Positions 21,164 to 38,520 of a DNA stretch of 38,520 nucleotides are shown here, in pieces. A model generated the notes under the pieces. The model had not been told where the DNA came from. It searched no databases and saw only the letters and a program-made list of their open reading frames with translations. The position numbers and the translations under genes are program-made. The stretch covers positions 133,599-172,118 of the forward strand of contig JAFLUY010000003.1 in NCBI GenBank assembly GCA_022508565.1. The letters are read 5' to 3'. Every line of letters starts with the position of its first letter. Position 1 is the stretch's first letter. This DNA comes from Erysipelotrichales bacterium (GTDB taxonomy: Bacteria; Bacillota_I; Bacilli_A; RF39; UBA660).

Positions 21164-21724
21164 ATGCAAGTAAATTTATATGATTTTGATAATACGATTT
21201 ATAAAGGAGATTCTTCAACTGACTTTTTCTTTTATTCGTTAATGAAATATCCAAAAGTAATAAAGTATCTACCTAGAATAATTAAAAGTGGAGTCCTTTA
21301 TAAGTTTAAAAGAATAAATAAAACAAAAATGAAAGAAAATATTTTCTCATTTTTAGAGGTAATTCCTGATGTTGATAATTTAGTAAGTGAATTTTGGGAG
21401 TCTCACTCATGCTATATCAAAGATTTTTACTTAAAGAAAAGACATAATAAAGATATAATTGTATCAGCATCCCCTGAGTTTTTGCTTAAGCCAATAACTG
21501 ATGAACTCAAAGTTATGGATTTAATTGCAAGTGACGTTAATAAAAAAACTGGTAAGTTTAATAAACCAAATTGCTATGGAAAAGAAAAAGTTATTAGACT
21601 TAATAAAAAATATAAAGATATTAAAGTAAACGAATCATATTCAGATAGTTTAAGCGATACTCCAATTCTAAAACTTGCTAAGAAAGCCTATATAGTTAAA
21701 GGCAATAAACTTACAGATTTTTAA
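21164..21724 (+). CDS. HAD-superfamily phosphatase, SerB-like subfamily
   Basis: Mg-dependent phosphohydrolase by fold. Motif I is YDFDNTIY (nucleophile Asp7, acid/base Asp9), motif II VSASPEFLL, motif III the lysine in CYGKEKV, and motif IV SYSDSLSDTP. The helical cap between motifs I and II, with positively charged segments, is that of the IB subfamily (SerB-like, such as phosphoserine or lipid-phosphate phosphatases). The substrate cannot be read from the sequence. Start: ATG after AGGTGAT. Being in an operon with the polyprenyl-phosphate transferase suggests, but does not prove, a role in envelope lipid or sugar phosphate metabolism. Confidence 0.85.
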   Translation: MQVNLYDFDNTIYKGDSSTDFFFYSLMKYPKVIKYLPRIIKSGVLYKFKRINKTKMKENIFSFLEVIPDVDNLVSEFWESHSCYIKDFYLKKRHNKDIIVSASPEFLLKPITDELKVMDLIASDVNKKTGKFNKPNCYGKEKVIRLNKKYKDIKVNESYSDSLSDTPILKLAKKAYIVKGNKLTDF

Positions 21725-21755
21725 TATTTGTTATAAAACAATAAAAAATAATTGA

Positions 21756-21785
21756 AATAGAATAAAATGTTCTATTCTTTTTTTA
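21756..21785 (+). terminator. Terminator after the TagO-like/HAD operon
   Basis: Stem AATAGAA / TTCTATT with a seven-base loop, then C and a run of T. Confidence 0.85.
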
Positions 21786-21831
21786 TGTTTTGGTGTATAA
21801 TACCTTTCATGCAGTACTGAAAGGAGAGCGT

Positions 21832-23733
21832 ATGTTAATCTTAAAAAACATAAGCAAGCAGTATGAAGGAAGTAAAACTATAGTATTAAATAATATTAAC
21901 TTAAAATTTGAAAATCATGGACTTATATGTATACTCGGTCCCTCTGGATGTGGTAAATCAACTCTTTTAAATTTAATTGGAGGACTAGACTACCCAACAG
22001 AAGGAGATATATTAGTTGATGATGCTATCTTAGGTTCTTTAAATAAAAAAGACTTAGATTATTATCATAATAAATATGTTGGTTTTATTTATCAAAATTA
22101 CAATTTAATTAATTATTTAAATGTTGTTGATAATATTGAACTTATCAACAAAAATAAAAGAATAGATGAACTTTTAGATTATCTACATATTAAGGATAAA
22201 AAACATCAAAAGGTAAATAATCTAAGTGGAGGAGAAAAGCAAAGAGTTGCAATAGCAAGATGTTTATCAAATGATCCGAGTGTTCTTCTGTGTGATGAAC
22301 CAACAGGTGCACTAGATATTAAAACAAGTAATGAGATAATGGAGTTGCTTAAAAACATCTCCAAAAAGAAATTGGTAATTGTTGTAACTCATAATGAAGA
22401 ATTAGCATTACAATATGCGGATAGAATAATTCGCTTAGAAGATGGATGTGTTATAAGTGATTCAAAAAAGATTATCAAAAATGTTATAAATAAATATAAT
22501 TATTCAAAAGTAAAGGTATCAAGAAGAAAAATATTTAACATAATAAAGAAAAACATTATAAGTAAATACAAAAGAAATATTTTATCAGTTGCTGCCTTTA
22601 GTGTTGGTCTTATTTCACTTTCTTTAGTTTTGGGTATTTCAAGCGGATTTAATAAAGCCTTAGAAAAAGAAGAAAAGGATTCTTTGAGTAAATATCCGAT
22701 ATATATTTCAAAAACTAGTACAAATCTTGATAATAGTTTAGAAGAGATATTTGATTTTAAGAAAGAAACTGATGATAACTACATTTATGCAAAAAGTGAA
22801 ACACATGAAAACGAAATAACTGAAGAATATATTAATGAATTAAACTCTATTAAGGAAAATACAAATTATATCGTTAAGGCCTATTTAATAAACAATGCTC
22901 TTATTAATGTCGTAAATAAAAAGATCGATGACTTAAATATAATTGCTGGTTCGAATCTAAGCAAAGAAAACGAATTATTATTAGTAGTTAATAATAATAG
23001 AATAAATACAGAAATATTAAAAAGTATTAATCTAAAAAAAGAGAAATACTCTTACGATGAATTAGTTGGTTATGAATTTAAATTAAAAAAGAAAACTTAT
23101 AAAATAGTTGGAATAGCTTCAACTAGCGAAGATTCGTATCTATATGACCTTACAGGTTTATTGAGTATATCAGATTATTTTGATAAAGAGATTCCTTCTG
23201 CTTTTTTTCTGTATCCAAAAGATTATGAAAATAAACAAATAATATTAAAACATTTAGATAAATATAAAGATATAGAATATACTGATTATTCAACTACAAT
23301 TAAAAAACTTTCTACAACAATTGTTGATGCAGTTAGTATGGTTTTACTTTGTTTTAGTATGATTGCTTTACTAGTTTCAACAATAATGATTGGAATTATT
23401 TCTTATATTTCTGTTTTAGAAAGAATAAAAGAAATCGGTTTATTTAAATCATTGGGTTTATCAAATAGATATATTAAATATATTTTTGTTGGAGAAAATA
23501 TAGCTCTAGGATATATTTCAAGTTTAGTTAGTTATTCAGTAATTAAACTATTAAGTATTCCAATTAATAATCTTCTTCAAAATCTAACAGGTATGAGTAA
23601 TATATTGCTAATAGATTCGAATCTTTTATTCATTATATTAATTGTTAGTATTTCTTTAAATATAATAGGTTCATATTTTCCAATAAGAAAGACAAAAAAA
23701 TTAAAAATAATTGATTGTATGAAATATGAATAA
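21832..23733 (+). CDS. ABC transporter, ATPase fused to FtsX-type permease (MacB-like)
   Basis: One 633-residue chain joins an ATP-binding domain (residues 1 to about 230) with an FtsX/MacB-type permease. ATPase motifs: Walker A GPSGCGKS (36-43), signature LSGGE (131-135), Walker B LLCDEPTGALD (Asp155, Glu156) and a switch His in THNEE. The permease has one membrane helix near residue 265, a large extracytoplasmic domain of about 200 residues, and three more helices at the end (from about 490), with the motif ERIKEIGLFKSLG. Such MacB-like proteins export peptides or lipoproteins, or act in mechanotransmission, instead of transporting small substrates. The ATG at 21832 follows AAAGGAG; an in-frame GTG at 21790 lies upstream of the promoter. 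No partner gene is adjacent. Confidence 0.9.
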   Translation: MLILKNISKQYEGSKTIVLNNINLKFENHGLICILGPSGCGKSTLLNLIGGLDYPTEGDILVDDAILGSLNKKDLDYYHNKYVGFIYQNYNLINYLNVVDNIELINKNKRIDELLDYLHIKDKKHQKVNNLSGGEKQRVAIARCLSNDPSVLLCDEPTGALDIKTSNEIMELLKNISKKKLVIVVTHNEELALQYADRIIRLEDGCVISDSKKIIKNVINKYNYSKVKVSRRKIFNIIKKNIISKYKRNILSVAAFSVGLISLSLVLGISSGFNKALEKEEKDSLSKYPIYISKTSTNLDNSLEEIFDFKKETDDNYIYAKSETHENEITEEYINELNSIKENTNYIVKAYLINNALINVVNKKIDDLNIIAGSNLSKENELLLVVNNNRINTEILKSINLKKEKYSYDELVGYEFKLKKKTYKIVGIASTSEDSYLYDLTGLLSISDYFDKEIPSAFFLYPKDYENKQIILKHLDKYKDIEYTDYSTTIKKLSTTIVDAVSMVLLCFSMIALLVSTIMIGIISYISVLERIKEIGLFKSLGLSNRYIKYIFVGENIALGYISSLVSYSVIKLLSIPINNLLQNLTGMSNILLIDSNLLFIILIVSISLNIIGSYFPIRKTKKLKIIDCMKYE

Positions 23734-30998: not shown

Positions 30999-31745
30999 AT
31001 GAATAATAATTGTTCATGTGGGAAATGTAATCCTCCTATAGCAGTAGGACCTACAGGACCAACAGGTGCAACCGGAGCAACTGGAGCAACAGGTGTACAA
31101 GGAATTCAAGGAGTTCAAGGAATCCAAGGATTAATCGGACCAACTGGAGCTCAAGGTATTCAAGGAATCCAAGGACCAATAGGACAACAAGGACCAACTG
31201 GGCCAACAGGAGCAAATGGAGTCACTGGGCCAACAGGAGCAACAGGAGCAACAGGAGCAACCGGAGTTACTGGACCAACAGGAGCAACAGGAGCAACAGG
31301 AGCAACCGGAGCTACTGGAATGTCTGCTAACTTAACAATAGGAACTGTTACGACAGGTGTTAATGCATCTGCAACAATAACTGGTACTTCACCAAACTTT
31401 GTTCTTAACTTAGTGTTACCACAAGGACCAACTGGGCCAACAGGAGCAACCGGAGCAACCGGTGCAACCGGAGCAACTGGAGCAACAGGCGCAAGTGATT
31501 CCTTAACTATCAGAAATACAACAACTGGTGATGCTGGAACAAATGCTATGGTTATTGATGTAACAGGAGGACCTGATCATACATTAGATTTTGTTATACC
31601 AAGGGGATACGATGGAGTAGATGGTGAAATAGGTATCCAAGGAATTCAAGGCCCAACAGGAGCCACAGGACCAACAGGAGCAACAGGAGCCACTGGAGCT
31701 ACAGGACCTAGAGGAGCATCTTGCCATTGTGAAGTCGAAAACTAA
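30999..31745 (+). CDS. Collagen-like protein with interrupted Gly-X-Thr triplets
   Basis: 248 residues, mostly Gly-X-Y triplets ([17 protein letters not shown]), which form a collagen triple helix with abundant Thr in the Y place, a common glycan site in bacterial collagens. Three collagen blocks are split by two similar beta-like inserts: about 109-143 ([10 protein letters not shown]...[10 protein letters not shown]) and about 167-207 ([10 protein letters not shown]...LDFVIPRG). The N-terminus has Cys5, Cys7 and Cys10 and the C-terminus Cys242 and Cys244, which could cross-link chains. There is no signal peptide, as in spore-surface BclA proteins. Start: ATG after GAAAGGAATG. The glycosyltransferase gene overlaps its end by 17 bases. 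Confidence 0.93.
31224..31313 (+). repeat. Tandem 45-bp repeat inside the collagen-like gene
   Basis: Two adjacent copies, 31224-31268 and 31269-31313, differ at only two bases and each encodes fifteen residues of collagen repeat. This is a likely site of copy-number change. Confidence 0.8.
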
Positions 31746-35125: not shown

Positions 35126-35737
35126 ATGAACGAATACCCAGATAGTGAATTAGTTAATTTAGTATGTGAAAAAAGTGAAGAAGCAAGAGATGTATTATAT
35201 GAAAAATATAAATATATTATTGATATTATTTATAATAAGTATCGTAAAAGTGCTTATTATTTAAGTGTTGATTTAAATGAATTAAGACAAGAAGCAATGG
35301 TGGGCTTTTCTGATGCTTTAGTTAATTACAATCAAGATAAAGATGTTAATCTAAGTACATTTATATCTTTATGTGCTGAAAGAAGAGTAAGAAATTATAT
35401 CAGATCTCAAGAAACACAAAAAAATAAAGTGTTAAGAAATGCTTATTCTTTAGATGATTCTCCATTTGGAGATGCTGAAGAAGTACCATTAAAAGAAATG
35501 ATAGGTAATAGTGCACTAGATCCTCAAGTAACACTAGAGGATTTAGAAAATATAAGAGAACTAAAAAAACAAATAGATGAGATATTAAGCCCATCAGAAA
35601 AAGAGGTATATAAACTTATTATTAATAATTTTTCTTATGAAGATATTGCTTCTATTTTAAATAAAGATATGAAAGCTATTTATAATACTTCTTCAAGAAT
35701 AAGAGCAAAAATAAGAAGCATCTTAGATGAAAAATAA
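35126..35737 (+). CDS. sigH: RNA polymerase sigma factor, SigH-like
   Basis: A 203-residue sigma-70 family protein. Region 2 spans about residues 50-95 (DLNELRQEAMVGFSDALVNY, then STFISLCAERRVRNYIRSQ) and region 4 about 150-200 (LSPSEKEVYKLIINNFSYEDIASILNK...). Regions 1.1 and 3 are absent, as in alternative sigmas. In Bacillus the order is mrnC-rlmB-rae1-sigH; here rae1 is missing and the rest is kept, which supports SigH (competence and early sporulation control). Whether this organism sporulates is not shown. Start: ATG after TAGGAGAG. Confidence 0.88.
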   Translation: MNEYPDSELVNLVCEKSEEARDVLYEKYKYIIDIIYNKYRKSAYYLSVDLNELRQEAMVGFSDALVNYNQDKDVNLSTFISLCAERRVRNYIRSQETQKNKVLRNAYSLDDSPFGDAEEVPLKEMIGNSALDPQVTLEDLENIRELKKQIDEILSPSEKEVYKLIINNFSYEDIASILNKDMKAIYNTSSRIRAKIRSILDEK

Positions 35738-37682: not shown

Positions 37683-37728
37683 GAAAACTTTATAAATAAT
37701 TAAAACTAATTTTATTAACATCAAAAAC

Positions 37729-37756
37729 TTGCAAAACGGGGGGGGTATGTTATTTT
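37729..37756 (+). promoter_or_regulatory. Promoter with an eight-G tract in the spacer (candidate phase-variable)
   Basis: TTGCAA (37729-37734), a 16-base spacer that contains eight consecutive G (37738-37745), then TGT and TATTTT (37751-37756). Adding one G would give the optimal 17-base spacing. The gene controlled starts at 37790. Confidence 0.6.
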
Positions 37757-37789
37757 AAATATAGATAAAATAATAGGGAGAAATGAACA

Positions 37790-38520
37790 ATGAAGAAGAG
37801 AAATATAATAGTTTTAATTTTACTTTTAGCTATAGGTTTTGCAAGCGTAGCTACAACATTATATATAAATGGAACAGCAAATATAGCAGCAAACAAAGAT
37901 GACTTTAATATTTATTTTAGTGAGGCAATGCTAGATGATGAAAATGTGACAGATAAAGTAATAATAAATAATGGAAAAAATATAAAATTTGAAACAAAGA
38001 CATTAAAGTCAATTGGAGAATATACAACACTAGAATATGAAGTAACAAATGCATCAAAAAACTATGATGCATCTGTAACAATGAAATGTAGTTTTGATGA
38101 AGAGCAAAATGAATTTGTATATATAACAAATACAATGATAAATAAAGTAATAAAAGCAAGGACAGCAGAAAAGGGAAGTATAGTAATAACATTAAGTAAT
38201 TCAGTAGTAGAGGATTTCTCATTAGATATTGCATGTGAGCTAGAATTTAATGCAATAGAAAGAAATGAGATAGCAGAAGGAGACATAGTATCAAGTGATA
38301 TAAATACATATAGTTTTTATGGCTACTTTGTAGATGAAGAAGATACACCAATTAAGAATGCAAACCTAGTAATGTATTCAGAAGAACCAAAATACATAAA
38401 AACAGACACAAGAGGATATTTTTATATATCAGGGTTAGAAAAAGGAGAACATGAGTTATACTATGTAAAAGATAAAACTATAGATGAATTAAAAGCTTTA
38501 TCAAAAGATAAGATAAAAGA
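37790..38520 (+). CDS. Exported surface protein, 3'-truncated (SipW/TasA-type leader, CnaB-like domain)
   Basis: The frame is open to the window's end; 243 codons are visible. Residues 1-25 are a signal-like leader (MKKRNIIVLILLLAIGFASV) running into LYINGTANI. That layout resembles SipW-dependent leaders of TasA/camelysin-type proteins, followed by a beta-rich domain (to about 170) in which short-strand patterns such as LEYEVTNASKNYDASV are seen. From about 180 a CnaB/carboxypeptidase-regulatory-like sandwich begins (SFYGYFVDEEDTPIKNANLVMY, then TDTRGYFYISGL), common in surface stalks. Start: ATG after AGGGAG. Codon choice is unusual: almost all Val, Thr, Ala and Ile codons end in A. Any sorting signal would lie beyond the window. 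Confidence 0.8.
   Translation, partial: MKKRNIIVLILLLAIGFASVATTLYINGTANIAANKDDFNIYFSEAMLDDENVTDKVIINNGKNIKFETKTLKSIGEYTTLEYEVTNASKNYDASVTMKCSFDEEQNEFVYITNTMINKVIKARTAEKGSIVITLSNSVVEDFSLDIACELEFNAIERNEIAEGDIVSSDINTYSFYGYFVDEEDTPIKNANLVMYSEEPKYIKTDTRGYFYISGLEKGEHELYYVKDKTIDELKALSKDKIK

Follow-up and report, generated by a model that had tools for sequence, protein, structure and literature searches.

Poly-G tracts in promoter spacers of exported-protein genes in an order of uncultured Bacilli: candidates for porA-like phase variation

A run of eight G within the promoter of a gene for an exported protein raises the question whether expression of this gene is switched by changes in the length of the run. 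Promoter switches based on homopolymers are known from a few pathogens, where they usually serve a handful of genes. The best comparison is porA of Neisseria meningitidis, in which the -35 and -10 boxes are separated by a spacer with a poly-G tract and the optimum spacing is 17 bases (PMC7864442; PMC3639595). A promoter of this type should carry the homopolymer between the two boxes, one-base changes in the tract should shift the spacing around the 17-base optimum, and tract length should be hypervariable between otherwise identical promoters. An initial annotation of the 38,520-nt stretch of DNA considered here, designated the window, had proposed such a promoter close to the window end. In the following, we describe this promoter, its copies in the home genome and its counterparts in related genomes, and we weigh the explanations that can be given for them.

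The window promoter and its copies in the home genome

The window promoter is composed of TTGCAA, AAC, G8, TATGT and TATTTT, in this order, and the ATG (37790) follows 34 bases on (Table 1). The spacer between the -35 and -10 boxes comprises 16 bases with G8 and 17 bases with nine G, so that one-base changes shift the spacing around the optimum. Two of the three expectations are met in this way, that of a homopolymer between the boxes by the window promoter as well as by the recurrent copies. The initial annotation had placed the boxes, the tract, the 16- or 17-base spacer and the distance to the ATG exactly, and its remark that long G runs are rare is borne out. In the AT-rich background (26% GC), G8 is the sole run of more than five G or C in the window, and according to the dinucleotide statistics of the window, runs of at least eight G are expected 0.007 times per window and 0.32 times per genome (both strands). 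The 1.69-Mb home genome contains five, all of them located at the same place in the same promoter.

Table 1 Promoter elements and gene at the end of the window
Feature	Position	Strand	Basis or remarks
55-bp promoter repeat	37717..37771	+	Identical at start of C18 and start of C23; end of C9 carries the last 54 bases
-35 box TTGCAA	37729..37734	+	Sequence; kept in the tract-free paralog C12a
G8 tract inside the 16-base promoter spacer	37738..37745	+	Sequence; five genomic copies, G8 in four and G9 in one
Extended -10 TGT-TATTTT	37748..37756	+	TGT 37748-37750, TATTTT 37751-37756
Likely ribosome-binding site AGGGAGA	37775..37781	+	Read from sequence
Exported surface-protein gene, 243 codons, cut by contig end	37790..38518	+	Signal sequence, Ig-like beta-sandwich, CarboxypepD_reg/SpaA-like domain

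Four of the five copies have the form TTGCAAAAC-G8-TATGTTATTTT and one has the form TTGCAAAAC-G9-TATGTTATCTT. The -10 region is TATGTTATCTT in this G9 copy, which is located on contig C4, and TATGTTATTTT in the paralog C12a. At least two of the tracts precede paralogous exported proteins, and the copy on C9 leads into a paralog that is 64% identical to the window protein. The C4 copy precedes an open reading frame that is cut at about 18 codons and has no visible signal sequence. Contigs of the assembly break at the 55-bp repeat, which is carried by three contig ends (C18 start, C23 start and C9 end); the genes behind the C18-start and C23-start copies are absent from those contigs.

Several paralogs of the window gene have promoters without a tract. 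C12a shows the same promoter, TTGCAA...TATGT-TATTTT, with a spacer of 18 bases, and in C1, C35 and C23i TTGAAA is combined with TATCTT or TATTAT at a spacing of 16-17 bases. The promoter reading is therefore supported by boxes displayed in paralogs and does not depend on the consensus alone. Upstream of a further paralog on C6 (gene 21692-22021, L070), the tract is interrupted, GGGGAGGGG; an interrupted tract would be stable, and this may be a locked promoter.

The window protein possesses a signal sequence, and export is supported by its N-terminal sequence. It contains an Ig-like beta-sandwich at about residues 33-161 and a CarboxypepD_reg/SpaA-like domain at about residues 178-224, the latter being a weak match below the curated cut-off. 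No family of Pfam or NCBIfam was found above the cut-off, and a closer naming of the fold was dropped, as the best match (Z 7.9) was to a generic Ig-like beta-sandwich and gave no family assignment. The gene is truncated because the window ends where contig C23 ends. Full-length relatives of the protein consist of a conserved N-terminal module and varied C-terminal parts, which include InlB-type repeats, BspA-type leucine-rich repeats, a glycine-rich domain and CarboxypepD_reg/SdrD/SpaA domains. From these features we infer that the tract promoter controls an exported protein, whose exposure at the surface is likewise an inference. Two other genes of the window may be mentioned here: an open reading frame with collagen-like triple-helix repeats at 30999-31745 (Pfam PF01391, E 1e-25) and, near the surface gene, a small protein with a match to sigma-70 region 2 at 35126-35737, possibly an alternative sigma factor.

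Recurrence and length variation in the genus and the order

The family of the window protein extends to three further species of the genus (G002, G005 and G006), where the match counts are 46, 42 and 66. A search of the relatives with the home pattern TTGCAA...TATGTTA gave no match outside the home genome, and the promoter design was recognised there by reading the upstream regions of paralogs. In G002 (CANQFG01), the tract promoters have the form TGCAACT-G(7-10)-TGCAATACAAT or the same with TGCGATACATT, the flanks being different from those of the home genome, and in G006 the form is TTGATTTTTC-G(9-10)-TATGATT. No tract was present in the three upstream regions read in G005.

The 49 promoter tracts of G002 consist of 7 (1 tract), 8 (17), 9 (30) or 10 (1) G. 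When copies with identical flanks of 7 and 40 bases, 47 in all, are compared in pairs, the number of G differs in 19 of 37 pairs. This is a comparison of paralogous copies within one genome, not of strains. Since the flanks are identical in pairs that differ in G number, the length of the tract must change far faster than the surrounding bases, and the third expectation, hypervariable length between otherwise identical promoters, is met in this genome. All 44 distinct proteins encoded downstream of G002 tracts look exported, judged by the N-terminal sequence; 26 of them are related to the window protein, and the other 18 make up a second family. The second family (CNAKDIEY...WDVDTVEDALNDLY) is served mainly by the TGCGATACATT promoter type; examples of its loci are L126:4289-5431, L131:3279-4736 and L168:397-1422. 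Similar proteins ('NSKDVYYEDNS...NVQDAID') are located behind G-tract promoters in G046, G131 and G154.

Across the order, the pattern TTGA-N(3-14)-G8-N(0-6)-TAYRWTW was found at about 556 places (the sum of the listed counts), spread over 88 of 337 genomes and 34 of 107 genera; the reversed pattern, used as a control, matches at one place. The share of the order is a lower bound because the pattern misses the home genome, in which the -35 box is TTGCAA. With these results, the recurrence of the tract before paralogous surface genes, which the initial annotation had named as a check of its proposal, is found in the home genome, the genus and the order. Outside the family, the pattern was found in 5 of about 115 genomes of the class. 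The genomes G435, G451, G471, G448 and G459, which belong to other families of the class, have one to four G-tract promoters each, and several tract promoters in such families precede exported or membrane proteins.

The flanks of the tract promoters differ among genera. The tract begins 1-10 bases past the -35 box and ends 0-6 bases ahead of the -10 box, its length ranging from 6 to 14 G across the order, and further genomes contain identical short flanks with 8/9, 9/10, 9/10/11 or 10/11 G. Behind the tracts are genes for prepilins, for Ig-like proteins and repeat proteins and, in a few cases, for enzymes, surface-related or other. In G102 and G141, exported proteins were found behind 12 of 12 tract promoters as against none of 17 ordinary TTGAC...TATAAT promoters; a hydrophobic N-terminus, which is a rough measure, was taken as the sign of export. 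The ordinary promoters of the same genomes are mostly free of G tracts. For these counts it has to be considered that each species is represented by one assembly and that many counts derive from related copies. Tracts at contig edges were left out of the inference on length. In the genera g94 and g102, some species have 30-40 tract promoters and others none by this pattern, which suggests either that tract promoters are gained and lost quickly or that the tracts there are short and locked. A scan of IMG/VR for phages carrying such promoters gave eight matches of mixed GC content without a clear link to the clade, and this line was abandoned.

Spacing, strand and length of the tracts

We consider it probable that these are porA-like phase-variable promoters, driven by slippage and present on an unusually large scale, that serve surface repertoires. 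Slippage, its rate and the effect on transcription and on the surface are inferred. In this model, the spacer of a promoter for the housekeeping sigma factor contains a homopolymer of G; slippage during replication would add or remove G and thereby shift the distance between the -35 and -10 boxes in one-base steps, and the changed spacing would raise or lower transcription of an exported, adhesin-like protein. In the relatives, up to dozens of tract promoters per genome would each stand ahead of their own surface gene, and if these promoters slip independently of one another, many combinations of surface proteins could coexist in one population. The location of the tracts between the boxes, their recurrence before paralogs, the variation in length between near-identical promoters and the exported nature of the targets are established, within the limits of the genome assemblies. 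Slippage within a population and an influence of tract length on transcription remain inferences. The initial proposal of a porA-type candidate is to this extent supported by the recurrence, by variable length with fixed flanks and by the exported targets, and change within a strain and the effect on expression have to be inferred also for the window promoter. Loss of mismatch repair, i.e. a mutator state, was rejected as the source of the variability on the evidence of MutS alone, because mutS1 is present in full length and over the cut-off in 19 of 20 genomes including the home genome. As far as MutS indicates, switching would have to take place in spite of functional mismatch repair.

The main rival is a factor that binds the G tract. 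The G run would then be a fixed G-box for a regulator or a special sigma factor co-regulating surface genes, and the differences in length would be tolerated noise. It holds this place by virtue of the strand: the C8 version of the order-wide search matched in only 1 of 337 genomes, whereas G occupies the coding strand at about 556 places, and a switch based on spacing alone does not predict such a strict rule. (Matches of the C-tract search that appeared to be 'controls' were the same G promoters read through AACT...ATGTTAT.) Length points in the same direction, as the modal tract length is 9 and is kept within a genome despite differing spacers, G9 being found in G141 in spacers of 18, 19 and 20 bases; the flanks, too, are well conserved inside each genome. 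However, a G-box calls for fixed position and length, and neither is met. The tract slides by many bases between genera, its length ranges from 6 to 14 G and is not the same even in copies with identical flanks, and no other constant motif was seen alongside it across genera. As the tract slides relative to both boxes, the one conserved feature is a run of G that determines the spacing, which favours spacing over a binding site, and we regard the G-box as unlikely. The length of 9 may simply be where slippage settles, since the mode of poly-G tracts in Neisseria is also 9 (PMC5953494). As a counterpoint to free slippage, four of the five home copies have the same length and 32 of the 41 tracts in G102 are exactly G9, a narrower spread than free slippage would give. 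Together, the strand rule and the narrow mode suggest that something besides spacing also constrains the tract.

The tracts could also be a mere by-product, if duplications of surface genes took a G-run promoter with them and the length of the run then drifted without adaptive use. The promoters within one genome are indeed near copies, and recent duplication explains their common flanks. It does not explain why the design recurs in 34 genera whose flanks are unrelated and whose protein families differ, nor why G runs persist where spacing matters in so AT-rich a background, when most ordinary promoters in these genomes have none. We consider this explanation improbable. Hardly any weight can be given to the view that the 55-bp repeats are mainly recombination sites at which surface genes are shuffled behind the promoter. 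Three home contig ends lie at the repeat, with two upstream flanks and one downstream flank unpaired, but a repeat as long as the k-mer is in itself enough to break a short-read assembly, most tract promoters of the relatives are located inside contigs with their own genes, and no recombinase or inverted arrangement was identified, without a dedicated search having been made. Two-colour sequencing produces false poly-G at read ends, and some contigs of G154 and G112 start inside a tract, but a sequencing or assembly artefact can practically be ruled out, as the tracts are for the most part internal to contigs, flanked by conserved boxes and followed by genes, and as they recur in many different assemblies on a single strand with respect to the gene, with controls near zero. 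The G154 and G112 contigs had also been considered as mixtures of tract lengths; this was discarded, as repeats or poly-G read ends suffice as an explanation.

Within the phase-variation reading, the spacing of the tract promoters deserves attention. Ordinary promoters in G102 and G141 peak at a 17-base spacer (30 of 92), and tract promoters of the same genomes have spacers of 14-20 bases, mostly 16 or 18-20, with 17 in only 4 of 58. For this difference p = 0.0002, but the copies are related, so that effectively only a few lineages were sampled. If 17 bases is the optimum here as elsewhere, the majority state captured in the assemblies would be one of weak or no expression for most tract genes, which would be turned on by gaining or losing one or two G; that off-17 spacing represents a mostly-off state in G102 and G141 is no more than suggestive. 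Extended to the order, this leads to the concept of a promoter phasome: small-genome Bacilli would maintain as many as about 50 G-tract promoters that slip independently, every one of them serving a different mosaic surface protein; with most spacers kept 1-2 bases off 17, most genes would be off in most cells, rare slips would turn on single ones, and the coding-strand rule would point to an additional unknown constraint. We put this forward tentatively, as a possibility for which the case is at present incomplete.

Relation to known phase-variable systems

With porA, the tract promoters share a G homopolymer that sets the spacing, a surface protein as target and similar tract lengths. They differ in phylum, in the unrelated protein, in their number of up to dozens per genome and in the strand, which is always G; slippage and expression, moreover, are unproven here. 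The best explanation is that they would work like the porA promoter without being homologous to it, slippage and expression being inferred in this analogy. In Treponema pallidum, tpr promoters contain poly-G of about 8-10, and a longer tract lowered the activity of the tprL promoter (PMC7864442). Several paralogous surface genes with promoter poly-G are common to both cases, but the tpr proteins are unrelated, the promoters far fewer, and the mechanism need not be one of spacing. The opc gene of N. meningitidis has a poly-C tract at the -35 region, which is said to affect regulator binding (PMC7864442); like the tracts described above, it is a promoter homopolymer that serves a surface gene, and opc-style poly-C is almost absent here. 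In the gut commensal Bifidobacterium breve, G-tract slippage controls surface pili (PMC9187656), but the tracts are intragenic and act on the reading frame, at two loci, and no promoter spacer is involved. Invertible promoters of gut bacteria, as far as can be judged from their description in a citing paper, also provide phase variation at the promoter level, by an inversion that needs a recombinase (Jiang et al. 2019, cited in PMC11868660), whereas here it would be the length of a homopolymer that changes.

The literature search turned up neither work on this clade nor descriptions of poly-G promoters from Bacilli. To judge from this literature, what is new is the clade, how many promoters a genome holds, the order-wide recurrence, the strand rule and the off-17 spacing. 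In this order of uncultured Bacilli, about one genome in four has tract promoters of this kind, some genomes have dozens of copies, and nearly all copies stand before exported proteins. If the phase-variation reading is true, surface diversity, phage resistance and immune recognition would depend on a state that sequencing reads reveal directly, without culture. One of the relatives derives from a rabbit sample ('Lapin' in the record name).
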